A DNA stretch of 64,000 bases from Oscillospiraceae bacterium (GTDB taxonomy: Bacteria; Bacillota; Clostridia; Oscillospirales; CAG-272). Location of the stretch: the NCBI GenBank assembly GCA_015064505.1, contig SVSB01000001.1, forward strand, positions 1 to 64,000, given 5' to 3'. Below the pieces are notes generated by a model. It searched no databases. It was not told the origin of the DNA and worked only from the letters and a program-made list of their open reading frames with translations. Below are positions 51,701 through 64,000 of this stretch, in pieces (the stretch's first letter is position 1; each line of letters starts with the position of its first letter). A program made the position numbers and the translations under genes.

Positions 51701-53407
51701 TCAGTCTTCGGACTCCTCCCTGTGATTTCGCATGACCTCTGCGTAACGAAGCATTTGTTTACGGGAGGATACGCCCAGCTTACCCAAAATATTGTGATTA
51801 TGATATTTCAGCGTGCTTTCCTTGATGCCCGTCAGCGCAAGGATCTCTTTTGCGCTTTTTCCCGCAAGGTAATATTCAAAAACATTTCGCTCGGCTTCCG
51901 TAAGAGTCTGAAGTCCGGCAAGGAAATAACGGTAATCCTCAGGGTCTATCTCCGTTTTGCGTGAGTAGGCAAGCCGTTCAAGCTCCGTTTGTATCCTTCT
52001 CAGCTCGCTTTGCGCGTTGCCGTATTCCTCTTCGATCCTGTGAAAATCACTTAAGGCTCTTTCGTAATCCGTCTGCAGGCGGATTTTTTCACTTTCAGCC
52101 GCCTCGTGCTTACGGGTAAGGGCACTCAACGTCTCACCGTGTTCTTTATCCTGACGGTCAAGATATTCAATAAGGTCAAGGATCTCGGGAATATCGGAGC
52201 CTGCCTCATTCCGCTTGTCCGACTTGATATGCTCAAGTGCGGAAAGCAACGGAGACAGAAACCGCTTGCTGAAATATCGGCAGAAGCTCAGCGTGAAAAA
52301 CAGCAGCAGAACCAGAAGCAGGACCGTCTGAGTGATGCTTTCAAACCGTGCACGGTCATAGTCCGCCCTCGGAACCATAACGGCAAGAATATGCTCGGCG
52401 GAACCGGCAGAAAGCGAGAGCCTTTTGGTTATTCCGATATAAGTATACGTATCCGACCTGAAATCCATAAGTCCGCTGTCAAGCCCGGTGACCGAGTAAT
52501 CCTCCGTCAGCTCATGGAAATACCCGTTTGATCCGCCGCAGCTGAGGGATTCGGAGGTGATCAGAACGTTTTCATGCGCCACTGTCAGAATACAGCTGAG
52601 ACGCTCCAGCTTTGACGGCTGCGAGTGATAGGTCATGAAATAACTGGCGCTGATCTCATATCCGCAGATACCGTAAAAGGTCCCGTCCTGCCCAAGCAGG
52701 GGAACGGTCAACAGAATTGCGTTTTCGGAGGTTCCGGGCAGGACGAACGGATCGGTGATCCGATACGCCTTTTCAAGCGGAAACGCCGCTCCGGACGTGA
52801 TATCGGCATAATTGGGGAAAATGTCGGTACGGAATTCCAGCTTCCATTTACGGTGCGGCATGATACCGTGTTTTTTGGCGATATCGGCGGATCCGCGGTA
52901 CATCAGCACGTCGGCATCCGACGGATGATAGCCGTTGATCTGCAAATACAGCCCCGTTCGCGAAAAAGCCGATTCAGGAAGTGAAGAATTAACGGTGGCG
53001 TTCAGCAGCACGAACGCACCGGAGCAGTTTGTTCCAAAGAGCTTCTGCCGCAGCGGCTCGATCATTGCTTCCTGTACGTTTGCGGTATGGGCTCCTGAAT
53101 CGTTAAGAGCGACAAACGCAAGACCGTTTTTCTGCAAATACTCCTCCAGAACGGCGGTCATATCCTCAGAAAGAGTGATCGCCGAGGCAGCAAGATGATC
53201 AAAATGGGCGCAGACGTCCTTCTCAAAGACCTCCATCTGAATGTCAAGCGCCTCGGAAAACGCTTCTTCCGTGCTTGTCGTGCGCCCGAACGCGATCAGT
53301 CCCACGGTGAGTATCAAAAGAAGCAGAAGCGCAAGAAGGAGCATATAAACGAATAATTTGCTTTTAAGAGACCACGCGGTATATGGGGAATGGGAATTTT
53401 TTCGCAT
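51701..53407 (-). CDS. Membrane-bound LuxR-type transcription regulator with outer sensor domain
   Basis: 568 residues. Layout: N-terminal membrane helix (about 17-40), an extracytoplasmic domain (about 45-335) in the style of dCache/CHASE sensors, a second helix (about 345-365), a HAMP-like and long coiled-coil linker (about 370-490, heptads with ETLSALTRKHEAAESEKIRLQ) and a C-terminal LuxR HTH (LTEAERNVFEYYLAGKSAKEI to KYHNHNILGKLGVSSRKQ). It lacks kinase or receiver domains, so it should pass a signal from outside directly to DNA. It is co-transcribed after a solute-binding protein gene, 13 bases apart, which may be its sensor. Confidence 0.85.
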   Translation of the reverse strand: MRKNSHSPYTAWSLKSKLFVYMLLLALLLLLILTVGLIAFGRTTSTEEAFSEALDIQMEVFEKDVCAHFDHLAASAITLSEDMTAVLEEYLQKNGLAFVALNDSGAHTANVQEAMIEPLRQKLFGTNCSGAFVLLNATVNSSLPESAFSRTGLYLQINGYHPSDADVLMYRGSADIAKKHGIMPHRKWKLEFRTDIFPNYADITSGAAFPLEKAYRITDPFVLPGTSENAILLTVPLLGQDGTFYGICGYEISASYFMTYHSQPSKLERLSCILTVAHENVLITSESLSCGGSNGYFHELTEDYSVTGLDSGLMDFRSDTYTYIGITKRLSLSAGSAEHILAVMVPRADYDRARFESITQTVLLLVLLLFFTLSFCRYFSKRFLSPLLSALEHIKSDKRNEAGSDIPEILDLIEYLDRQDKEHGETLSALTRKHEAAESEKIRLQTDYERALSDFHRIEEEYGNAQSELRRIQTELERLAYSRKTEIDPEDYRYFLAGLQTLTEAERNVFEYYLAGKSAKEILALTGIKESTLKYHNHNILGKLGVSSRKQMLRYAEVMRNHREESED

Positions 53408-53420
53408 ATTCCCACCTCAT

Positions 53421-54761
53421 TCAATCGATGCTGCAGAAGAATTCCCAAAGCTCCTCGGTCAGCGCGGCGATGCTTTCACCATTTTCGGCACGCTCCGCGA
53501 GGGAGGGCTGCATTTTTCTAAGCCCTGCGTACAGTGCGTTCGTTTTGTCATAAAATCCCGCAAAATCCGGACGGACGACGGGAACATATTCGTCGTACAT
53601 CGTTTTGATGGCGGTATAGAGGCTTTCGTAGCCCGCATCGTCAAAGTCATAATCTTCGATCGCTTCAAACGCGCCGTTCGTCACCGGCATATAGCCCGTA
53701 CTGACCACAAAATCCAGATTCCGTTCACCTTCGGTAAACCATCTTACAAATTCATATGCGGCTTCCGCCTTTTGATCGGTCGTTTTGAAAGCACACAAAC
53801 CAACGCCGGTCTGGGGCATATATTCGTTTTCCCCACCCGTTCTCGGCAAAGGAAGCACCTTCAGCTCCATGGCCTCGGAGGTATTGTCGGGATAAGTGAC
53901 GGTATCGTTATAATATCCCACCGCCGCCGAGGAGCCGATGCCCGAAAGCACCTCGCCGGTCATGACCTGGGTGTTTGCGTACAGATCGGATACGACGATA
54001 TGTCCCTTGGCAAGCGCTTCGGCAAACATGGAGAAGGATTCCTTGATGGCGGGATCGTTCTCGTCATACCAGCCGTTTTCCGTGTATTCAAGCTTTCCGT
54101 AACGGGAGAGAATATCAAGCTCCATGTGGCGGATCAGGTAGTCAAGGGCGCAGAATGCACTGCCTCCCGACCACTCATAGTATTTTTCTGCGGCAGCAAA
54201 GAAAGAGTCCCAATCGGACAGGCTTTCATAGGTTACGCCGGTATCCGCTGAAAAGCGCGCAAACTGCGAGCCGTTTACAAACAGCGCGTAGGTAGATTTA
54301 GACACGGGAAAAACAACGAGCTTTTCTTCGATAACGCCGCTTTCTATAAACTCGGGCACGTAATTATCCAATTCCTTTTCGGCAAACCACTGGCTCCAGT
54401 CCAGCAGATTCTCAATGCCGAACGCCTGTGCGTTCTGCGTGTGGCAGGAAAAGAGATCGGGAAGTTCGGGAGCTCCCGGCTTGCCTGCCTGCGCATCCAG
54501 AAGCTGCGCCTGAATTTTTGACGTGCTCGTTACGTTGGTAACCTGAACACGAATGCCCTTCTCACGTCCGACCGTTTCGTTGAATTCTTTGATCAGCAGA
54601 TTCATGGGCGCGTCTGCCTGCTCGCCGTAAACGTGCCAAACGGTAAGTGTGACGGGGTCGCTCGGGTCAAGCAGTGACTTGTCGGAGCAGGCGCAAAGCC
54701 CTCCGAGTGCAAAGGCCAAAAATAGAATAACCGAGAAGATGCGTACAAGTGTCTTGTTCAT
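53421..54761 (-). CDS. Extracellular solute-binding lipoprotein, no permease nearby
   Basis: 446 residues. Lipoprotein signal (LGGLCACSD, Cys about 25) and the cluster-type fold of sugar-binding proteins (TLTVWHVYGEQADAPMNLLIKEFN; LSDWDSFFAAAEKYYEW; EAAYEFVRWFTEGERN). Such proteins normally feed an ABC importer; none is next to it. Instead a membrane LuxR regulator follows 13 bases downstream, which suggests a role in signalling. An approximately 230-base leader precedes it. Confidence 0.87.
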   Translation of the reverse strand: MNKTLVRIFSVILFLAFALGGLCACSDKSLLDPSDPVTLTVWHVYGEQADAPMNLLIKEFNETVGREKGIRVQVTNVTSTSKIQAQLLDAQAGKPGAPELPDLFSCHTQNAQAFGIENLLDWSQWFAEKELDNYVPEFIESGVIEEKLVVFPVSKSTYALFVNGSQFARFSADTGVTYESLSDWDSFFAAAEKYYEWSGGSAFCALDYLIRHMELDILSRYGKLEYTENGWYDENDPAIKESFSMFAEALAKGHIVVSDLYANTQVMTGEVLSGIGSSAAVGYYNDTVTYPDNTSEAMELKVLPLPRTGGENEYMPQTGVGLCAFKTTDQKAEAAYEFVRWFTEGERNLDFVVSTGYMPVTNGAFEAIEDYDFDDAGYESLYTAIKTMYDEYVPVVRPDFAGFYDKTNALYAGLRKMQPSLAERAENGESIAALTEELWEFFCSID

Positions 54762-54993
54762 GATTTTTCCTCCGTTTTTCAGAATTTCATCAAAAATTCA
54801 GAAAAAATTTTTCGCTTTTCCCCACCTTTTTCCCTTTTGGGTGGGGGACAAAACTCCGAAAATCTGTAAAATGATTCTTGAGGTAGATTCAAGGAGGGTA
54901 TAGATCTTGCCTTCGGCCAAAAAGTTTTGGGGTACCTTATATCAAGTCTCCGCAAACGCGCCAACGGATCCGGAGACCGCCCCATTACTTATG
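54762..54993 (-). promoter_or_regulatory. Long structured leader of the solute-binding-protein mRNA
   Basis: From the likely transcription start to the ATG are about 230 bases. Potential stems: GTCTCCG with CGGAGAC (around 54949-54979), a small CTTGA/TCAAG hairpin (around 54880-54895) and CCCCACC with GGTGGGG (54820-54846). No family I can name and no U-run after the last stem. It could be a riboswitch or an RNA stability element. Confidence 0.4.
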
Positions 54994-54998
54994 AGTAT

Positions 54999-55029
54999 AT
55001 TATAGCACGAAACGTTGAAACAGTCAACG
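54999..55029 (-). promoter_or_regulatory. Promoter with palindromic site, divergent control region
   Basis: TTGACT (complement of 55022-55027), 17 bases, TATAAT (complement of 54999-55004). CGTTGA-AACAG-TCAACG (55013-55029) covers the -35 box and lies between this promoter and the plus-strand genes; a TATAAT for the plus strand stands at 55043-55048. The site could serve the LuxR regulator on both sides. Confidence 0.7.
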
Positions 55030-55099: not shown

Positions 55100-55468
55100 A
55101 TGCCGAAAAAGCAAACCGCGGCGTATAAGATCATCTCGGATTCCGGCGGAAACCGCTATAAGTTTTACTGCGACCTGACCGGGGCGCTTTTATGTACCAC
55201 GAAGCCGTACCGTGCGGACACACCCGAGAAAGAGCTTGAGCTTGCATGGAATAACGAGGGCAAAGCGCATTTTAATTTGTGCCACAAATGCGGCAGATGG
55301 GTAATCGATGCGATGTATAACGCAGACGCGCTGGAATGCGTTTCCTGCTCGCCTTGGGAAAACACGCCCGAATTCTGCAAGTTCTGCGGCACGAAAGTAT
55401 CTTTCTCCGACGCAGTATGTCCGATGTGCGGAAAACAACTTATTTACGGGGGGTGCTTTGATGATTGA
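55100..55468 (+). CDS. Zinc-ribbon protein, first gene of the Cys-rich cluster
   Basis: 122 residues without a signal peptide. The middle and end hold CxxC pairs in FYCDLTGALLC, LCHKCGRW, LECVSCSPW, FCKFCGTKVS and VCPMCGKQL, enough for two zinc ribbons. The ATG follows a textbook AAGGAGGT. Shares the divergent control region with the solute-binding-protein operon. The next gene starts inside its last codons. Confidence 0.75.
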   Translation: MPKKQTAAYKIISDSGGNRYKFYCDLTGALLCTTKPYRADTPEKELELAWNNEGKAHFNLCHKCGRWVIDAMYNADALECVSCSPWENTPEFCKFCGTKVSFSDAVCPMCGKQLIYGGCFDD

Positions 55469-55745
55469 TACCACGGAAAGTCCGAAATACGTCCGTCTGG
55501 AAGCCTTCGGCATGGGCCCTTACGCCATGAAAAAGATCAAGATATGTCCGAGGTGCGGTCAGATAGCGAAAAGAACTTCTTTGGTGTGTTATGCGTGCAA
55601 AAAAATACTGACGCGCAAAACGCTCTTTGACGAATACAAAATGATGCATTTCTGCTGTCCTTCGTGCGATATTCCCCTTACGTTGGATACGCAGTATTGC
55701 CCGCATTGCGGCAGAAAAGTAAGCTTTAGCTCGGGCGAACAATAA
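55461..55745 (+). CDS. Second zinc-ribbon protein
   Basis: 94 residues, overlapping the previous gene by 8 bases. CxxC pairs: ICPRCGQIA, VCYACKKI, FCCPSCDIPL and YCPHCGRKVSF, that is, two zinc ribbons. The KVSFSSGEQ end resembles KVSFSDAV in the first protein, so they are relatives by duplication. The ATG has GGGGGGTG upstream. Cytoplasmic location is suggested by the lack of a signal. Confidence 0.75.
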   Translation: MIDTTESPKYVRLEAFGMGPYAMKKIKICPRCGQIAKRTSLVCYACKKILTRKTLFDEYKMMHFCCPSCDIPLTLDTQYCPHCGRKVSFSSGEQ

Positions 55746-55771
55746 TTCTTTACAGCAAGGAGAATCAAATA

Positions 55772-58522
55772 ATGAAAAAGATCAAATGCTTGAACCGAAT
55801 ATTCGCTATGGCGATAGCAACCGTTTTGCTTATCGGTTCCTTTTCCACGTCGGTTTTCGCGGCGAAGGAGAATTTTACAACATATCAGATCGATGACGTT
55901 ACCATTACCGGAATCGATGCTCCCGAAGCGGGCAAACCGTTCGATTTTACAGCAGAAGAGAGCTCGCAGAAATATAACGTTATCAAGGTTGCCTGGAAGT
56001 CGCAGTTCGGCAACAATTACATAACCGACACCTCTGTATCTGCAACTGCAGGAACGCAATACACGGTGTACGTGGTTCTTGAGGTTGCAACGGCTGATCA
56101 TTATTTCCATACCGACAGCGGAAGAATGCCTGCAGTTTCAAGCGTCACCGTAAACGGCTATACTGCAAACGCAAGCAATTCAATGGATTACAGCCTTTTC
56201 TCGGTAGACGCGTCCAAATACGAGCACGATACCACGTATCAGAAATATCTGGTCGTTACGTATACCTTCCCGGAAACCGAAGCTGCTCCTATCACAAGCA
56301 TAGATTTTAACGTTCCCACCCTTGTGCTCGGACAGCTCATTCCCACCACCTGGCAAGCTTCGGGAATAAGCATTGAAGGCATAAACGGAAACGCGAACAA
56401 CGGCCAGGTCAGCGTCAACAAGATCGAATGGTCTTTGCAGGACGGCACTAGTCTGCCGGGCAACTCAGCCTTTATATTCGGACAGACGTACTCGCTGAAG
56501 CTTACGCTGAGTCCGCTCTACGGCGCAAGCTTCGCTACCGATCCGAACCATTTTCTCTCTCAGCCCGGCAAGCCCTTCCCCGCCGTTACGGTGACCATGA
56601 ACGGAAAAACGGCCACCGTGCTTCCGACTTACGATAACTATTCCAATATGTACTTAGTCGCATCATGCGTATTCAGCTGCGACACGCCGTCAAAAATAGC
56701 GAAGATCGATCTCACCGACATTGATGCGCCCGTTGCGGGAAAAGCGCCCGATTATACCTTCATAGGCGGCGGTGGATATGAGCACAACGGCAGAAGCGAC
56801 GCCTATTACAAGAACGGTGTGTGCTGGTCCGAGGTGGGCAGCTCGTACGTTCTCTCCGACGGCACGCAGGCATTCCTGCCCAACAAGGCGTATCAGGTAG
56901 ATATCCGCATCAAGGCAAAGACGGGATATGAATTTGCCACTGATTCTTTCGGCATCGTTTCCACGGCTGTCACCGTCAACGGTAAGAGCGCATCCGTCTC
57001 CGGAAACAAGAACGAAATTCTCATTACCTGCGAGTTCCCCGCTACGGGTAACCTGGCCATTGGCAAGATAGGAGTTACGGACATTGAACTACCCGCCGAG
57101 GAAAGCACCCCCGATTACAACGTAACTTACTTAAACGTCAACTACGGCGCCGCCAATTACAACAACGCAACCACGAAGAACGGTATTTCCTGGTACAACG
57201 AAACTGATAGCAAGGTCATGTCCACCACCGACAAGTTTGAGGCAGGCAAGACCTATACTGTGCAGATCACGATCTGGACCAACGAGGGCTATGAGTTCCT
57301 ATATGATTTGGGCGAGGTAAACGTGGACGGTACCGTCAACGGCGAGAAGGCCGAGGTAAGCTCGCGCCACAACGAGGAAGTTACGCTTTCCTACAGCTTT
57401 CCGAAGGTAGTTAAGCACAAGCACTCTCCCATAAAGGTGGACGAAGTGAAAGCAACCTGTAAGGAAGAAGGCAAAAAGGCGTATTACTACTGTTCCGAAT
57501 GCGGCAAGATCTTCGAGGATAGCAAGTGTACCATCGATATCTACGACGTCAACACTTGGGGAACGATCGAAAAGCTTGAGCATACCGGCGGCAAGGCGAC
57601 CTGCGACACCCGTGCGATCTGCAAAAACTGCGGTGAATACTACGGCGATCTTGCGGAACACAACTTCGGAAGCACGTGGGATTATAAGGACGCATTGGGC
57701 CACGCACACAAATGTAAGGTTTGCGGCGTCATCGATACCGTTATTCCTCACGGCGGAGGAACCGCAAAGTGCGGAGAACTGGCAAAATGCGCAGAGTGCA
57801 AGACCGAATACGGCGAAGTGATGCAGCATCAGTGGAGCAAAACTCCCGAATACACCGATTCCAAGGGACACGCATATATATGCACCGTTTGCGGCGATCA
57901 CGACGATATCGTGAAGCACTCTCCCGGCCCGGAGGCAACCGAGACCTCCTCCCAAAACTGCACCGTGTGCAATTACGTGATCACTCCCGCAAAGCAGCAT
58001 AAGCACACCCTTACCAAGGTTGAAAAGACCGATGCCACCTGCACGACAGCAGGCCAAGAACAGCACTACGTCTGCGACGGATGCGGCAAGCTTTTCAGCG
58101 ACAGCAAGGGAAACACGGAGATCACGGACAAGGACAGTCTGGTCATCCCCGCCACAGGTCACAAGGATTCCGCGTGGAAGTCCGATGCTGACGTGCATTG
58201 GAAAGAATGCACCGTTAAGGGCTGCGGTGAGCTGACCGTAGAAAAAGGATCACACGAATTCAACAAGGCAGGCAAATGTACCGTTTGCGGATACGTTTCC
58301 GAAGATGAAACCGACGAGCCCAAGACAACGGACAGCGCCGCCGAAGACGATACGACCGTCCCCGACGAACCCGATGATACCACGGAAGTAAATGACCCCG
58401 CAGACGATAACGAAAGCAACGCGGTAATGTGGATCGTTCTTATTGCTTCCGGTGTATTAGCCGTTGCTTGTATCGCTATCGTTGCAATAGTGCTCGTGAA
58501 AAAGAATAAGAAAAAATCATGA
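55772..58522 (+). CDS. Surface protein with beta repeats, Cys-rich stalk and C-terminal anchor
   Basis: 916 residues. Signal peptide (about 1-29, cleaved near VFAAKE). Then four related beta domains (about 30-545), each opening with a ITxIDAP or ITDIELP phrase and closing with a 'AKTGYEFATD' type turn. From about 550 to 850 come His/Cys repeats: KHKHSPIKVDEVKATCKEEG, CSECGKIFEDSKC, CKNCGEYYG, CKVCG, CAECKTEYG, CTVCGDHDD, HKHTLTKVEKTDATCTTAG, CDGCGKLFSDSKG, CTVCGYV. An acidic Asp/Thr region and one membrane helix (about 888-910) with a KKNKKKS tail anchor it. Related sequences occur in large surface proteins of gut Firmicutes, role not established. Confidence 0.8.
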   Translation: MKKIKCLNRIFAMAIATVLLIGSFSTSVFAAKENFTTYQIDDVTITGIDAPEAGKPFDFTAEESSQKYNVIKVAWKSQFGNNYITDTSVSATAGTQYTVYVVLEVATADHYFHTDSGRMPAVSSVTVNGYTANASNSMDYSLFSVDASKYEHDTTYQKYLVVTYTFPETEAAPITSIDFNVPTLVLGQLIPTTWQASGISIEGINGNANNGQVSVNKIEWSLQDGTSLPGNSAFIFGQTYSLKLTLSPLYGASFATDPNHFLSQPGKPFPAVTVTMNGKTATVLPTYDNYSNMYLVASCVFSCDTPSKIAKIDLTDIDAPVAGKAPDYTFIGGGGYEHNGRSDAYYKNGVCWSEVGSSYVLSDGTQAFLPNKAYQVDIRIKAKTGYEFATDSFGIVSTAVTVNGKSASVSGNKNEILITCEFPATGNLAIGKIGVTDIELPAEESTPDYNVTYLNVNYGAANYNNATTKNGISWYNETDSKVMSTTDKFEAGKTYTVQITIWTNEGYEFLYDLGEVNVDGTVNGEKAEVSSRHNEEVTLSYSFPKVVKHKHSPIKVDEVKATCKEEGKKAYYYCSECGKIFEDSKCTIDIYDVNTWGTIEKLEHTGGKATCDTRAICKNCGEYYGDLAEHNFGSTWDYKDALGHAHKCKVCGVIDTVIPHGGGTAKCGELAKCAECKTEYGEVMQHQWSKTPEYTDSKGHAYICTVCGDHDDIVKHSPGPEATETSSQNCTVCNYVITPAKQHKHTLTKVEKTDATCTTAGQEQHYVCDGCGKLFSDSKGNTEITDKDSLVIPATGHKDSAWKSDADVHWKECTVKGCGELTVEKGSHEFNKAGKCTVCGYVSEDETDEPKTTDSAAEDDTTVPDEPDDTTEVNDPADDNESNAVMWIVLIASGVLAVACIAIVAIVLVKKNKKKS

Positions 58523-58539
58523 AACCGCGAGGTGAACCC

Positions 58540-59106
58540 ATGAAATGGCTTTTCCTCGGGCTTGGAGTCGCATTTGCCGCCCTGATCTGCGGCATCGCGG
58601 CATTCCGCCGAAACCTTCCCGAAAAAACCAGCGAAGATATAGACGGCGGCGTTGTCAAACGCTACCGGACCGATATGCCGAAGGTAATTGAATCTACCGA
58701 AATCGTGAGCTTCCAATGCGTGATCTCTTTGATTGCCGCGTGTGAAGCAGAAGGCTTGGGACACCGCGTATATAAGCTTGCCGCCGAAGTGCGTGACGGC
58801 GAGGTGCTTGTAAAATACGATTGGCGTGAGCGCGGCGGCAAAAGCGACAGGGCTGAATATACGGCTGAGGCGGATTTTATGGTGCGCCTGCAAAAAATCG
58901 TTTCCGATTACGATCTTGCAAGTCAAAACGGATATTACCATAACGTCAGCGGTCTGCCCGATATGTACGGAGGAAGTTTGGATATCGTATACGCCACCGA
59001 CGAACGAATTCATATCCACGATAACCAGAGTGGGATTCTGCCGCCCGAAGCCGAAAGGGAGCTTATTTTGCTGTTCGGCGCGGCAACGAAGCTTGAACGC
59101 GAATGA
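58540..59106 (+). CDS. Unrecognised membrane-anchored small protein
   Basis: 188 residues from the ATG behind GAGGTG (an earlier ATG overlaps the previous stop as ATGA and would add seven residues). One N-terminal membrane helix (about 3-20), then an outer or inner domain of mixed strands and helices (EIVSFQCVISLIAACEAEG, VRDGEVLVKYDWRERG, DERIHIHDNQSG). No family recognised. Middle of the Cys-rich cluster. Confidence 0.7.
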   Translation: MKWLFLGLGVAFAALICGIAAFRRNLPEKTSEDIDGGVVKRYRTDMPKVIESTEIVSFQCVISLIAACEAEGLGHRVYKLAAEVRDGEVLVKYDWRERGGKSDRAEYTAEADFMVRLQKIVSDYDLASQNGYYHNVSGLPDMYGGSLDIVYATDERIHIHDNQSGILPPEAERELILLFGAATKLERE

Positions 59107-59122
59107 ATAAGGAGGAATCTGA

Positions 59123-59686
59123 ATGTCAATTTTTGATAAACTGAAGAAAAACGTACAAACTGCGGTGAGATCTGCCGCAACGGCTGCTTTTGCAAGCGAG
59201 GAGACCTTCACGTTTGCGGCACTTCCCGAAAGTCTTGCCGAGATGAAGGCATTGCCGGAAGCATCCCTTGCCAGCCCCTTTGCAACGGCGGCTCTTACCG
59301 TTTGCGCGCTGTGCGCGTATGCTGCAGATAAGTCCATCGGCACGGAAATGCTCAATTATCTGCGCGGTCCCCGTCCGCTGTCCAATCACGATATCTCTTT
59401 CCTGAACGATCGCTTCAGCGAAGTGCGCTACGTTCCCTTCTCCTACTTCAAGGGTGCCGTTCCCGCCAACGATTACACGCCCGACACACCCTTTACCGTC
59501 ACCGTCACAAGCGGTCCCTATTCCGACGCAAACGAAGGCTATAAGAAGCTCTATATAAAAAGCGGCGGCGCTGACAGCCCGCGCGAGATAGTCCTGAGAA
59601 GGCTTGGGGACGGAAGATGGATGCTGTGGGATCAGTTTCTGCTTGTGAGCATCCGCAAGTCGGGATCCGACGATCCGTGGGCGTGA
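59123..59686 (+). CDS. Conserved domain protein (DUF6935-like, from memory)
   Basis: 187 residues, soluble, beginning with an amphipathic helix. Conserved-looking core: FAALPESLAEMKALPEAS, TVCALCAYAADKSIGTEML, YLRGPRPLSNHDISFLNDRF, VPFSYFKGAVPANDYTPD, YIKSGGADSPREIVLRRLG. I recall this pattern as DUF6935 in gut Clostridia but could not check. No catalytic residues evident. Its stop overlaps the next start (GTGA). Confidence 0.7.
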   Translation: MSIFDKLKKNVQTAVRSAATAAFASEETFTFAALPESLAEMKALPEASLASPFATAALTVCALCAYAADKSIGTEMLNYLRGPRPLSNHDISFLNDRFSEVRYVPFSYFKGAVPANDYTPDTPFTVTVTSGPYSDANEGYKKLYIKSGGADSPREIVLRRLGDGRWMLWDQFLLVSIRKSGSDDPWA

Positions 59687-60156
59687 GAATACGGATACTG
59701 ACGGCCGTTATGATATTTACTGCGCTGTTTGGTTTGTTCGGATGCAACGGAGGGGGCAAAAAGACGGTCACTTCCGTAGAGGCGGTGACGCTCGTCCTGC
59801 AAACGATGCGAGGGAGCTGCGTATACAAGGTTGAGGGCAACGGAGACGCAAAGGAGCTGAGGCGATATCGGGAAATCTACCGCAGCGAAGCAGTGGAGCT
59901 TGTGCTTGAGCTGAGCGTTCCCTGCGATGCGCAAAAGCTGACCGAGCTTATGAATGCCTGCGGTATCCTTCGTTGGGACGGCTTTCACGGCAAGCATCCA
60001 AAAAACGTCTCCGACGGAACCTCGTTCCGCTTTGAAGCCACGGTAAACGGCGGACAGACGATCCGCGCTGAAGGTTCTGCGAATTTCCCCAAAGGCTACA
60101 ACGAATTTGTCAGCGCTCTGAATGCGATGCTTGCAGAGCACGAAAAGACCGAATAA
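59683..60156 (+). CDS. Small lipoprotein of unknown function
   Basis: 157 residues starting on GTG that overlaps the previous stop. The start choice gives a lipoprotein signal with lipobox LFGLFGC (Cys about 20); a longer reading upstream would have no signal. The mature part is mixed alpha/beta with no motif recognised. Followed by hairpins at 60229 and 60248. Confidence 0.68.
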   Translation: MRIRILTAVMIFTALFGLFGCNGGGKKTVTSVEAVTLVLQTMRGSCVYKVEGNGDAKELRRYREIYRSEAVELVLELSVPCDAQKLTELMNACGILRWDGFHGKHPKNVSDGTSFRFEATVNGGQTIRAEGSANFPKGYNEFVSALNAMLAEHEKTE

Positions 60157-60228
60157 CGGAGCTGCGGCAACGGGTAATTTCTGCTCAAATGCGGAAAGCC
60201 GCGCAAGTAACGAATAAAATACGGAAGC

Positions 60229-60292
60229 GGGGAACCTCGGTTCCCCCCTTCTCAAAGTCCTTCTCTCCCAATGAGAGGAGGACTTTGAGAAG
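60229..60292 (+). terminator. Two adjacent hairpins, the second with a 20-bp stem
   Basis: GGGGAACC-TC-GGTTCCCC (60229-60246), then a stem of 20 pairs (60248-60267 with 60273-60292, one G-U) around CCAAT. Neither is followed by a T-run on the plus strand (AAAATTCTTC), so it may be an RNA processing or stability element rather than a true terminator. Confidence 0.5.
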
Positions 60293-60340
60293 GAAAATTC
60301 TTCAAAGCAAACACAAATCACAAATAAGGGGGCATATACG

Positions 60341-60775
60341 ATGCGTTATGTTGGAAAATGGGTCTTTCACTCCATTGGAGCGGTGACGGATGCCGATGAA
60401 CCGGTATATCTTAATGCCGAGGAGTATCTGAAATCTCCAATGCCGTATATCGACGAAACGGATGAAGAAGCGGTTGCAGGCGAGCTTCGGGAGAGAAAAT
60501 CCATGATCGGAATGCAAATAGAGATCTGCGAGGACGGAAAGCTGTACACGCTGATGCCTCTTCCCGAAGGCGTTACCAAAGAGGAGGTCGATGCAGCCGT
60601 TGCCGCCGGTGAGATAATGCTGCGAGGAGGCATGATGACTAACGGTCCCGCATCGTGGGAGGAACGGGACGGCGTGCTGTGGTATACCACCGAGCTCAGC
60701 GAGGACGGGTGGACGAGAGGCTCGGACGACGGCTTTGTTTTCTTCATGACCGTACGGTTTGCAAAAGCCGAATGA
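60341..60775 (+). CDS. Unrecognised small protein
   Basis: 144 residues, no signal peptide or membrane helix. The start MRYVGKWVFHSIGAVTDA and the mid-strand VLWYTTELSEDGWTRG suggest an all-beta, lipocalin-like small barrel (GKW-type opening), but this is a weak resemblance. ATG after AAGGGGG. Next gene begins 15 bases later. Confidence 0.65.
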   Translation: MRYVGKWVFHSIGAVTDADEPVYLNAEEYLKSPMPYIDETDEEAVAGELRERKSMIGMQIEICEDGKLYTLMPLPEGVTKEEVDAAVAAGEIMLRGGMMTNGPASWEERDGVLWYTTELSEDGWTRGSDDGFVFFMTVRFAKAE

Positions 60776-60790
60776 TCAAGGTGGCGGCTT

Positions 60791-61216
60791 ATGAGTGTTT
60801 TCGATACCAAAAAATTCCGCGTGACGGTGCCTGAGGGCTGGATGGCGTTCTGCGGCACCGACAGCGGCGGAAAAACCACACCTAAGAAGGTACATATTTA
60901 TAAAGGGATATCCCTTCAAACGGATATTTTTACCCACGCGGGCATTACGGTCTGCTACTTCGGTAAGGAGGACCCTTACCTTTCACCGAAGAGCTTTTAC
61001 GAAAACGTTACGGATATGGAGCCGCTCTCCCTCGGACCGTATATCTGGAACGGATATACCTGCACGAGTATCGGATATCCGTATACGATGTTAGACGCAA
61101 AAAAGGACGGATGCGTCCTTCAGGTAATGATCCTCATGAAAAACGGAGATCATGAAATCTCACTTAACGATGCGGACGTGAGACTCATAATCGGGAGTCT
61201 TGCGCTGTCTGAATAA
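60791..61216 (+). CDS. Unrecognised small protein
   Basis: 141 residues, soluble. MSVFDTKKFRVTVPEGW opens a strand-rich fold (FCGTDSGG, VHIYKGI, HAGITVCYFG, GYTCTSIGYPY), close to the pattern of PsbP- or DUF1795-like small domains that begin with a 'F-V-P-x-W' strand; no functional residues known. Lies just before the large Cys-rich gene. Confidence 0.65.
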   Translation: MSVFDTKKFRVTVPEGWMAFCGTDSGGKTTPKKVHIYKGISLQTDIFTHAGITVCYFGKEDPYLSPKSFYENVTDMEPLSLGPYIWNGYTCTSIGYPYTMLDAKKDGCVLQVMILMKNGDHEISLNDADVRLIIGSLALSE

Positions 61217-61265
61217 CGTCTTTTAAAACACACGGACGAGGAGTGAGGGTTTTTGCGGTTTTGCG

Positions 61266-61309
61266 GTAACACAGATCTCCCTGCGGCGGAAAAGCCCAAC
61301 GGGAGTTAC
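61266..61309 (+). promoter_or_regulatory. Stem-loop just upstream of the Cys-rich gene
   Basis: GTAA pairs with TTAC and CTCCC with GGGAG, with a 6-base bulge and an inner GGC-GGAAAA-GCC hairpin. Its 3' arm lies next to the ribosome-binding site GGAAGGAG. A translational control element or small ligand-binding RNA is possible. Confidence 0.4.
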
Positions 61310-61323
61310 GGAAGGAGAACAAA

Positions 61324-64000
61324 ATGAATCAGAAAATGAGAAGAATATGGAGTATACTGCTCTGCTTTTTGCTGTTGATCGGAATATTTCCGAGATATAC
61401 ACAGCATAACGAATTTCACAGTCTTGCCGAGCTGGAATTATCTTTCGACGGTCACGACGGTCACGGTCACGAAGATCACGGTCACGACGGTCACGGTCAC
61501 GAGGATCACGATCACGAAGGTCACGGTCACGGTGATCAAGACGACCACGACCGTGAGGAGCTTGATTCCCGCGCTGCGTTCGATCTGTTATCGGTTTTCG
61601 AGGATATTCTTGAGTTTTCGCTGTCACTTTTTGCAACGCCCGTATACGCCGCCTACGAGGACGGCGTGGAGTGCGAATACTGCGGCGGCTGGCGTTACGA
61701 CGATTGGAAATGTGACAACGGCGACCACTGCGGCGAGGGTGCCGACGGCGACTGCTACGAGGAGCATCACTGCGGATACTGCGGTGCCTGCGAGGATGAT
61801 AACGAGCTGTGCGACGATTGCGGCAACTGTCTTGACGAATGCTGCGAGTGCGACGAAAAGTGCCGCGGATGCTATTCAACGAGCGGCGACGTGTGCGACG
61901 TATGTGGAGAAAAATGCACGGAATGTGTGGATTTCATCTGCGATGACTGCGGCATCTGTGCCGATTGTGCGGGCAACGACCTGTACTGCTCCGAATGTAT
62001 GCTGTGTATCGGCTGTGCCGATTGGATATGCTACTGCGGCGGTGGCTGCTCGGAATGCACAACGGGCTGCGAGCAATGCTATGAAAAGTGCATGGTCTGT
62101 GCAGAAGACGAGATCTGTGGCGACTGCGGAACCTGCTTTGACTGTCTCGGCGGTGACGGTAACTACTGCTCTGAATGTCTGCTGTGTAAATTCTGTGTTG
62201 AATACATATGTGAATGCGGCAGAGGCTGTTCCGAATGTGTACTGATCTGTGAGCAATGCCAGGAAAAGTGCGAGCAATGCGCCGACGGCGGAATTTGCCA
62301 GGACTGCGGTGTTTGTTTTGACTGCGTGGGCGGTGACGGCAACTTCTGTCAGAACTGTGAGCTTTGCAAATTCTGCGTTGAATACATCTGCACCGGCTGC
62401 GGTGAGGGTTGCTCGGAATGTGCCATAATCTGTTCGGAATGCGGCGAGAAGTGCGAAAGCTGTGCGGACGACGAGCTGTGCGGCGAGTGCGGGGTATGCT
62501 TTGCTTGCCGCGGAGGAGAGGGTAATTACTGTTCTGACTGCGGTTTATGCAAAATGTGCGTGGATTACGTCTGCGCCTGCGGAAACGGATGCTCGGAGTG
62601 CTCCTACGTATGCCCCGAATGCGGCGAAAAATGTTCAGCCTGCGCCGAGGAAGAGATCTGCATAGAATGCGGTACCTGCTTTGACTGCGTGGGCGGTGAG
62701 GGCAACTTCTGTTCCTCATGCGGCTACTGTAAAAACTGCGTCGACTACATCTGCTACTGCGGCGAAGGATGCTCGGAATGCGCTATTATCTGCGTGGCGT
62801 GTAACGAAAAATGTGAAAAATGCGCCGATGACGAGCTGTGCGCCGATTGCGAGCGCTGTTTTGATTGCGCAGGCGGCGACTTCTGTGCCGAATGCGGCTT
62901 ATGCGGTGAATGCGTTGAGGTTCTGTGCGCCTGCGGCAACGGATGTAATAATTGTGCAGAAGTGATCTGCGAGAGCTGCGGTGAAAAATGCTCAAACTGT
63001 GCCGAGGATGAGCTGTGCACGGAATGCGGCACCTGCCGCGATTGCGTGGGCGGCGACGGCAACTTCTGCGACACCTGCTCAATTTGTAAAAACTGCGTGG
63101 ATTATATCTGCGTGGGATGCAGCGAGGGCTGCTCCAATTGCGCGGAGATCTGTCCCGAGTGCGGCGAAAAATGCGAAAACTGCGCAGCGGATGAGCTTTG
63201 TGCAGACTGCGGCGTCTGCCGCGACTGCGTGGGCGGCGACGGCAACTTCTGCGACACCTGCTCTCTCTGCAAAAACTGCGTGGACTACGTCTGCTCCGAG
63301 TGCGGTCAGGGCTGCTCCAATTGCGCGGAGGTCTGTCCCGAGTGCGGTGAAAAATGTAATCAATGCGCAAACGACGAGATGTGCTCGGATTGCGGAATCT
63401 GCGTGGATTGTGTCGGTGCGGAGAATTTTTGCGTGATGTGCTCACTCTGCCATGAATGCGTGGAGGCGGTGTGCGCCTGCGGAGAGGGCTGCTCCAACTG
63501 TGCCACCGTATGCTCGGATTGTAACGAAAAATGCTCTAACTGCTCCGACGGTGAGGTGTGCACGGAATGCGGCAAGTGCGTTGACTGTGCGGGTGCGGAC
63601 AGCTTCTGCATAAACTGCGGACTCTGCTCGGACTGCGGCGTTATCTGCCCTTGCGGCGAGGGATGCGAAAACTGTGCGGATCTCTGCCCTGACTGCGGCG
63701 AAAAATGCTCCAACTGCACGGACGAATTCTGTGTGTCCTGCGATATTTGCCGTGAATGTGCGGAGGATATCTTCTGCGAGGATTGTTATCAGTGCGGCGA
63801 ATGCACGGAAATATGCGATGACTGCGGCACCGTCTGTGCCGACTGTGCCGAGAGCGTGTGCGAGGAGTGCGGCAAATGCTCCGGATGTATTGATGAATTC
63901 TGTCCCGACTGCGGCGTCTGCATTGACTGTGCCGACAGCATGTGCCGCGACTGCTATTACTGCGGCGACTGTACCGATAACATCTGCGTTGACTGCGGTG
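61324..64000 (+). CDS. Giant secreted protein of His-rich segment and about fifty CxxCxxCxxC modules, truncated by window end
   Basis: The frame opened by ATG 61324 (after GGAAGGAG) stays open to the end of the window: 892 codons, no stop. Residues 1-24 form a signal peptide (MNQKMRRIWSILLCFLLLIG). Residues 42-76 hold twelve histidines mixed with Gly and Asp (DGHDGHGHEDHGH, EGHGHG). A second hydrophobic stretch (LEFSLSLFATPVYA, about 96-109) leads into the Cys region from about 117. Its basic module is hydrophobic-C-x2-C-x2/3-C-x2-C, about 14-18 residues; four modules make a 58-61-residue unit, for example LCADCGVCRDC, FCDTCSLCKNC, VCSECGQGCSNC, VCPECGEKCNQC. Each unit has about sixteen Cys, roughly one in four residues. 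CPECGEKC-type knuckles suggest zinc ribbons; iron-sulfur or disulfide use is not excluded. Confidence 0.9.
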   Translation, partial: MNQKMRRIWSILLCFLLLIGIFPRYTQHNEFHSLAELELSFDGHDGHGHEDHGHDGHGHEDHDHEGHGHGDQDDHDREELDSRAAFDLLSVFEDILEFSLSLFATPVYAAYEDGVECEYCGGWRYDDWKCDNGDHCGEGADGDCYEEHHCGYCGACEDDNELCDDCGNCLDECCECDEKCRGCYSTSGDVCDVCGEKCTECVDFICDDCGICADCAGNDLYCSECMLCIGCADWICYCGGGCSECTTGCEQCYEKCMVCAEDEICGDCGTCFDCLGGDGNYCSECLLCKFCVEYICECGRGCSECVLICEQCQEKCEQCADGGICQDCGVCFDCVGGDGNFCQNCELCKFCVEYICTGCGEGCSECAIICSECGEKCESCADDELCGECGVCFACRGGEGNYCSDCGLCKMCVDYVCACGNGCSECSYVCPECGEKCSACAEEEICIECGTCFDCVGGEGNFCSSCGYCKNCVDYICYCGEGCSECAIICVACNEKCEKCADDELCADCERCFDCAGGDFCAECGLCGECVEVLCACGNGCNNCAEVICESCGEKCSNCAEDELCTECGTCRDCVGGDGNFCDTCSICKNCVDYICVGCSEGCSNCAEICPECGEKCENCAADELCADCGVCRDCVGGDGNFCDTCSLCKNCVDYVCSECGQGCSNCAEVCPECGEKCNQCANDEMCSDCGICVDCVGAENFCVMCSLCHECVEAVCACGEGCSNCATVCSDCNEKCSNCSDGEVCTECGKCVDCAGADSFCINCGLCSDCGVICPCGEGCENCADLCPDCGEKCSNCTDEFCVSCDICRECAEDIFCEDCYQCGECTEICDDCGTVCADCAESVCEECGKCSGCIDEFCPDCGVCIDCADSMCRDCYYCGDCTDNICVDCG
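62098..63714 (+). repeat. Nine in-frame tandem units of 174-183 bp inside the Cys-rich gene
   Basis: Unit starts (first Cys of the CADDELC-like phrase) at 62098, 62278, 62461, 62641, 62821, 62998, 63181, 63364 and 63541, with the next at 63715. Lengths are 58-61 codons and always multiples of three. Units around 63045 and 63228 share a 38-base identical block, a sign of recent duplication or gene conversion. Confidence 0.88.

Follow-up and report, generated by a model that had tools for sequence, protein, structure and literature searches.

The window analysed here, bases 1-64000 of the 132,601-base contig SVSB01000001.1 from an Oscillospiraceae bacterium, carries a real and undescribed system, in which nine genes (g1 to g9) on the forward strand face a divergent pair of sensor genes across a structured leader RNA. 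With a probability of roughly 0.7, it is a sensor-controlled cell-surface operon headed by a new cis-acting leader RNA. This reading draws on a layout conserved with either of two sensor types in one divergent position, on the recurrence of an operator and of two promoters, P+ and P-, across loci, on the covariation of the RNA, and on the linkage of the RNA to the sensor and to DUF6935, the family of g5, together with a sister locus in which exactly the RNA segment is missing. Of the first-pass annotation, the undescribed and probably regulated cluster rich in surface proteins is now supported, and co-occurrence and conserved layout show it to be co-inherited; that annotation had missed the operator, the structured leader RNA and the two facing promoters. 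The interpretation has since shifted from metal or redox capture to a sensor-controlled surface operon.

Comparisons drew on 295 genomes of the window's order (labelled G000 etc.), on 56 loci (L036 etc.) recovered by scanning GTDB genomes with a g1 profile, and on a sample of 391 genomes for the class-level RNA search. Genome counts and Fisher p values ignore phylogeny, and physical linkage is a stronger argument than genome co-occurrence counts. The sensor and regulatory features of the window are as follows.

51701-53407, reverse strand: membrane regulator of 568 amino acids (aa), with a transmembrane segment (TM), an extracellular region, a second TM, a coiled coil and a LuxR helix-turn-helix (HTH) (GerE, E 5.5e-11)
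53421-54761, reverse strand: SBP_bac_8 solute-binding protein (SBP), a lipoprotein of 446 aa (Pfam E 2.4e-24)
54820-54846, no strand: putative palindromic operator CCCCACC-N13-GGTGGGG, a 27-nucleotide (nt) inverted repeat adjoining the -35 element
54845-54872, forward strand: predicted promoter P+ of the g1 operon, GGGACA-16-TAAAAT, with a weak -35
54870-54986, forward strand: structured leader RNA (model R2, 101.5 bits, E 9e-23), with P0, a P1-P3 junction and a pseudoknot
54999-55027, reverse strand: predicted promoter P- of the SBP-regulator operon, TTGACT-17-TATAAT, with an extended -10 (TG)

Structure and covariation of the leader RNA

Alignment of the intergenic region between the SBP gene and g1 in the window and seven relatives revealed an unusually conserved block. 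The leader RNA within it is 117-145 nt long, in round figures 100-150 nt, and lies between P+ and g1, usually 70-120 nt upstream of the first gene. Its fold combines a hairpin, P0, whose loop is AAGGAGGGUAUA, with a three-way junction closed by P1 and enclosing P2 and P3. P2 is highly variable in length and sequence: it is full in L164 and L155, but absent or very short in the window and at some other loci. The P3 loop, CGCGCCAACG, is one of the conserved unpaired blocks, the other being GGAGGGUAU. A pseudoknot joins GGGUA of the P0 loop to UACCC after P1, with 94.5% of cells paired and compensated changes at three of the five pairs. This 26-pair model supersedes a first automatic structure of 15 pairs.

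Model R2 finds 41 RNA copies across the 56 loci. In the R2 alignment, which was fitted to the model and thereby favours pairing scores, 88.5% of pairing cells are paired against 71.3% after shuffling, 22 of the 26 nested pairs vary on both strands of the stem, and compensated cells number 162 against 50.4 +/- 5.8 in shuffles, a value that none of 500 shuffles reaches and that collapses in slid controls. When each sequence was checked singly, without fitting, the arms of P3 again matched, in many distinct sequences. G-U cells outnumber A-C cells by 60 to 32, an excess that favours the strand in the sense of g1, and the wobble test restricted to interior pairs gives 34 against 13 in the same direction. 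With its covariation-supported fold, sense orientation and 5' position in the predicted transcript, the leader is, as judged from sequence, a structured cis-regulatory RNA.

Rfam 15 gave no match above its gathering score over the element at any locus scanned, the sole gathering hit being RNase P elsewhere. A literature search found nothing on such an RNA, which may be listed unnamed among the 16,482 microbiome RNA candidates of PMC8040213. A conserved leader peptide was also considered and rejected, since the SD-like (Shine-Dalgarno-like) AAGGAGG and the TTG present there are not followed by a conserved reading frame.

Distribution and linkage of the leader RNA

Thirteen of the 295 genomes carry the RNA, one weak 60-nt match being excluded. 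DUF6935, present in 59 of the 295, accompanies it in 12 of these 13 (p 2e-8), and in 10 of those 12 genomes it is encoded within 11 kilobases (kb) downstream of the RNA on the same strand. Outside the order, the class-level search added three further strong matches, each adjoining a gene for a 7TM-LuxR protein. A divergent sensor lies directly upstream of 36 of 43 RNA copies; among the remaining seven, some are truncated contigs or misses of the open reading frame (ORF) caller, and the sensor of L217 was recovered by homology. The sister locus L165, compared with L164 and L168, retains the promoters and flanks and lacks exactly the RNA segment; of the SBP, just a fragment is left at this locus.

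Most genomes with the RNA have one copy or two, in every case with one operon type and not with metabolic genes. G019 holds a tandem pair (L039, G019:C28, 6156-6295 and 6508-6648), the downstream copy having a separate palindrome and promoter-like sequence. Tandem copies, full or partial and with operator and promoter repeated as well, were also observed at L036 (9137-9447) and L218 (2600-2981), where the RNA is minimal, with almost no P2. Related operons, in which the RNA is matched weakly, occur in cultured strains such as Clostridium porci and Eisenbergiella porci.

Sensors, operator and promoters

The 568-aa regulator has the TM sensor part and LuxR HTH of a membrane LuxR one-component protein, and a kinase domain was not found in it. 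The divergent "sensor pair" of the first-pass annotation stands insofar as divergent sensor genes exist; they encode an SBP_bac_8 lipoprotein and a membrane LuxR-HTH protein and not a two-component pair. The SBP lipoprotein, found at 36 of the 56 g1 loci, is the likely ligand presenter for the membrane regulator. Full-length regulator homologues occur in 15 of the 295 genomes, mostly adjoining g1 or the leader RNA. At several loci the divergent position of the pair is taken by an alternative sensor, the 7TM-LuxR protein (HisKA_7TM plus GerE). Another divergent set (544 aa, 444 aa and LuxR), perhaps a two-component variant, heads the operon at L150 and L152 (Clostridium porci and Eisenbergiella porci), where the RNA match is weak and the SBP and sensor genes lie further upstream.

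The 27-nt inverted repeat recurs with operator geometry across many loci, and the divergent layout together with this palindrome suggests that the LuxR regulator would control the adjacent g1 operon. The 7TM-LuxR loci bear another palindrome, CCCATACT...AGTATGGG, at the operator position, as would be expected if every regulator had its own operator. P- matches the consensus at 11 of 12 positions and is kept in most loci; placed between the leader RNA and g1, it reads toward the SBP gene, so that P+ and P- are oriented face to face with the leader RNA in between.

Genes of the operon and their conservation

Nine head-to-tail genes span 55100-65334 on the forward strand, and since the genes past g9 lie on the opposite strand, the operon ends at 65334.

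55100-55468, forward strand: g1, zinc-ribbon protein of 122 aa and first gene of the operon (DZR E 4e-4, below the curated cut-off)
55461-55745, forward strand: g2, double zinc-ribbon protein of 94 aa, partner of g1 (DZR E 7e-8)
55772-58522, forward strand: g3, surface protein of 916 aa with a signal peptide, an Ig-like part, His/Cys repeats and a C-terminal TM
58540-59106, forward strand: g4, N-anchored protein of 188 aa, no family assigned, with homologues in the same operon type
59123-59686, forward strand: g5, DUF6935 protein of 187 aa (PF22043, E 3.2e-54, 183.7 bits against a curated cut-off of 27)
59683-60156, forward strand: g6, lipoprotein with a GTG start overlapping g5 and a lipobox; relatives in a few loci
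60341-60775, forward strand: g7, small protein of 144 aa, with a 62% identical homologue in L040 beside g5 and g8
60791-61216, forward strand: g8, small protein of 141 aa, with a 68% identical homologue in L040
61324-65334 (window part 61324-64000), forward strand: g9, giant secreted Cys-rich protein of 1336 aa, with 238 Cys and 131 CxxC

The head-to-tail arrangement with short gaps or overlaps, as first annotated, is borne out by the ORFs: g1/g2 and g5/g6 overlap, the longest gaps are 184 nt (g6-g7) and 107 nt (g8-g9), Shine-Dalgarno sites are mostly good, and the order recurs in relatives. The last gene, g9, had been left open-ended and is complete on the contig. The same gene order in other genomes makes the cluster more than chance: all nine genes stand in window order at L129, a metagenome-assembled genome (MAG) from roe deer, and G055, of a different family in the same order, keeps the layout, its SBP and sensor genes pointing away from g1-g2-g3-g4-g5-DUF4428 protein-g9, with identities of 75% (g1), 63% (g3), 72% (g5) and 58% (g9). 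The g3 homologue in G157 is 46% identical.

Gene maps repeat a standard layout, in which sensor and SBP genes point away from g1, g2 and cargo, and the 56 loci come mostly from ruminant-gut Clostridia MAGs and from isolates, including the two cultured strains named above. The expected co-occurrence was found: g1 is present in 12 of the 295 genomes (two weak, sensor-linked matches counted) and shares eight with the full-length sensor (Fisher 2e-9), alongside the association of RNA and DUF6935. Downstream of 43 RNA copies, where cargo was labelled by similarity to seeds and in some cases by our own judgement, the families are g1 (23), g2 (21), DUF6935 (17) and g3-type surface proteins (11), and further recurrent cargo comprises g4, His/Cys surface proteins, TFIIB-ribbon, TPM, DUF4428, S-layer-type and SPFH/YdjI-like proteins.

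Both predicted zinc-ribbon proteins are upheld. The g1 family (50 sequences) has 14 invariant columns, eight of them Cys, and g1 matches no curated family at cut-off; g2 likewise has eight invariant Cys, and where g1 is clear, g2 almost always adjoins it. At L118 (9533-10171) the two are apparently fused in one 212-aa ORF, with two SBP-sensor pairs flanking it. The g5 protein ends in a conserved C-terminal WA (21-sequence alignment), and its predicted model (pLDDT 87.8) is stronger than that of g1; for both proteins, no Foldseek match at E<=0.001 and no significant sequence relative in the PDB were found, and a literature search found no paper on DUF6935. Tandem DUF6935 proteins of about 1000-1270 aa, with at least four copies, were noted in G042:C12, G066:C52, G084:C172 and G180:C90. 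The GKW start of g7 we take, purely as an impression, to be lipocalin-like. Six of the nine proteins have no confident Pfam family, and a known anti-phage defence system was rejected, as none of the nine matches a PADLOC model.

Proposed mechanism and alternative readings

In the mechanism we propose, the SBP lipoprotein would bind an outside ligand and present it to the membrane regulator, both being produced from the strong P-. The LuxR HTH of the regulator, acting on CCCCACC-N13-GGTGGGG, would then activate P+ with its weak -35, and the folded leader RNA in the resulting transcript may influence, in cis, how the long operon is expressed, either as a ligand-binding switch or as an RNA-only antitermination or stability element. 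The two zinc-ribbon proteins, together with surface and envelope proteins that differ from operon to operon, might in turn remodel the cell exterior, with the giant CxxC/His-rich protein as one optional, membrane-anchored cargo.

Several observations weigh against this sensor-controlled operon. After the RNA, neither an intrinsic terminator nor an obvious ribosome-site switch was seen. Some 7TM-LuxR loci have the operator and P+ without the RNA, which is therefore not essential, and at L218 the RNA occurs with no sensor gene beside it. An envelope role for most cargo is suggested by signal peptides, TMs and family context. The wider proposal, that this leader is the first known representative of a new class of cis-acting regulatory RNAs which, with membrane LuxR sensors, gate interchangeable surface-protein operons in gut Clostridia, we consider evenly balanced.

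A metabolite or ion riboswitch controlling the downstream operon is possible but not probable. The junction and pseudoknot, the conserved unpaired GGAGGGUAU and CGCGCCAACG, the 5' leader position and the occasional tandem copies are all in keeping with one; however, no expression platform was recognised, and the mostly one or two copies per genome, always before one operon type and not before metabolic genes, speak against it.

An RNA-only processive antiterminator or messenger RNA (mRNA) stabiliser for the long operon is rather unlikely. The RNA heads operons of about 10 kb, and a near-perfect hairpin of 21 base pairs (60247-60293) lies inside the operon between g6 and g7, in a 196-nt stretch with z -7.4 and with no other close copy in the window. 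This hairpin, however, has no U-tract and is not a typical terminator, and the window is not enriched in terminator-like sites relative to shuffles. Antitermination of the LoaP type was rejected as unlikely: all 13 RNA genomes have a single NusG and no LoaP-like paralogue.

Metal capture or redox buffering through the giant CxxC/His-rich protein, the purpose first suggested for the system, is improbable. The 131 CxxC motifs of g9 are arranged in repeats of about 60 aa, and a His-rich stretch near the N-terminus and the two zinc-ribbon proteins would suit such a role. Yet the protein is missing from most operons of the type, its cysteines could be disulfides, and no metal transporter was found among the mapped operon genes. 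Strong homologues occur in only 4 of the 295 genomes (G000, G055, G157, G214) and a few GTDB loci; matches in 114 of the 295 fall mostly on a generic His/Cys surface repeat (residues about 960-1150, without a Pfam match), and the Cys repeats are strongly matched only by G055, G157 and G214. In G157 the g9 homologue is found together with a g3 homologue, apart from the RNA, and in G214 a Cys-rich relative follows the RNA and a 7TM-LuxR gene. The giant protein, rejected as the core of the system, is optional, accessory cargo, and metal or redox capture is thus not supported as the shared purpose.

That the intergenic block works from the opposite strand, as leader of the SBP-regulator transcript, or at the DNA level is very improbable: P- does read straight through the block, and an antisense RNA would fall in the SBP leader, but the wobble pairs favour the sense strand and conserved loops with covarying stems are unlike the pattern of a DNA site.

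Relation to known systems

Membrane-bound LuxR one-component regulators of Eggerthellaceae, found for example beside catechol dehydroxylases (PMC11585353), likewise fuse a membrane sensor to a LuxR HTH beside the genes they are expected to control. Those regulators have 10-12 TMs and control enzymes, whereas the sensors here are SBP-coupled or of HisKA_7TM type and adjoin surface operons, usually with a structured leader RNA next to them. The dfn leader hairpin, which is small and needs LoaP (PMC12691694), also heads a long operon; the RNA described here is larger, with a junction and a pseudoknot, and its 13 genomes have no NusG paralogue. Orphan riboswitch candidates and Rfam leader families share the conserved multi-stem 5' leader with a pseudoknot, but the present RNA has no Rfam 15 match and is tied to surface operons, not metabolic genes. 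The EAR RNA of eps operons is another leader element of long operons.

A list of unassigned proteins from little-studied gut Clostridia has thereby become a testable system of sensor, operator, folded RNA and swappable surface cargo, and the cultured relatives Clostridium porci and Eisenbergiella porci make the testing practicable. The RNA field gains an orphan structure that is well supported and clearly placed in its genomic context, and DUF6935 gains a functional setting.

The g9 protein recalls the variant surface proteins of Giardia, another gut organism, which are CxxC-rich and membrane-anchored. Like them it combines very many CxxC with a membrane anchor, a C-terminal TM ending in RKKK, but it has no Pfam or PDB sequence match and a bacterial 60-aa repeat, and the likeness would be convergence. 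In g9 (residues 40-110) and its relatives, a conserved His/Asp-rich stretch follows the N-terminal hydrophobic segment and precedes a second AxA site, signal-peptidase-like and immediately ahead of the Cys repeats. The Cys-rich protein at L124 (G214:C21, 7487-11527), of 1346 aa with 313 Cys, ends in a dockerin, not a membrane anchor.

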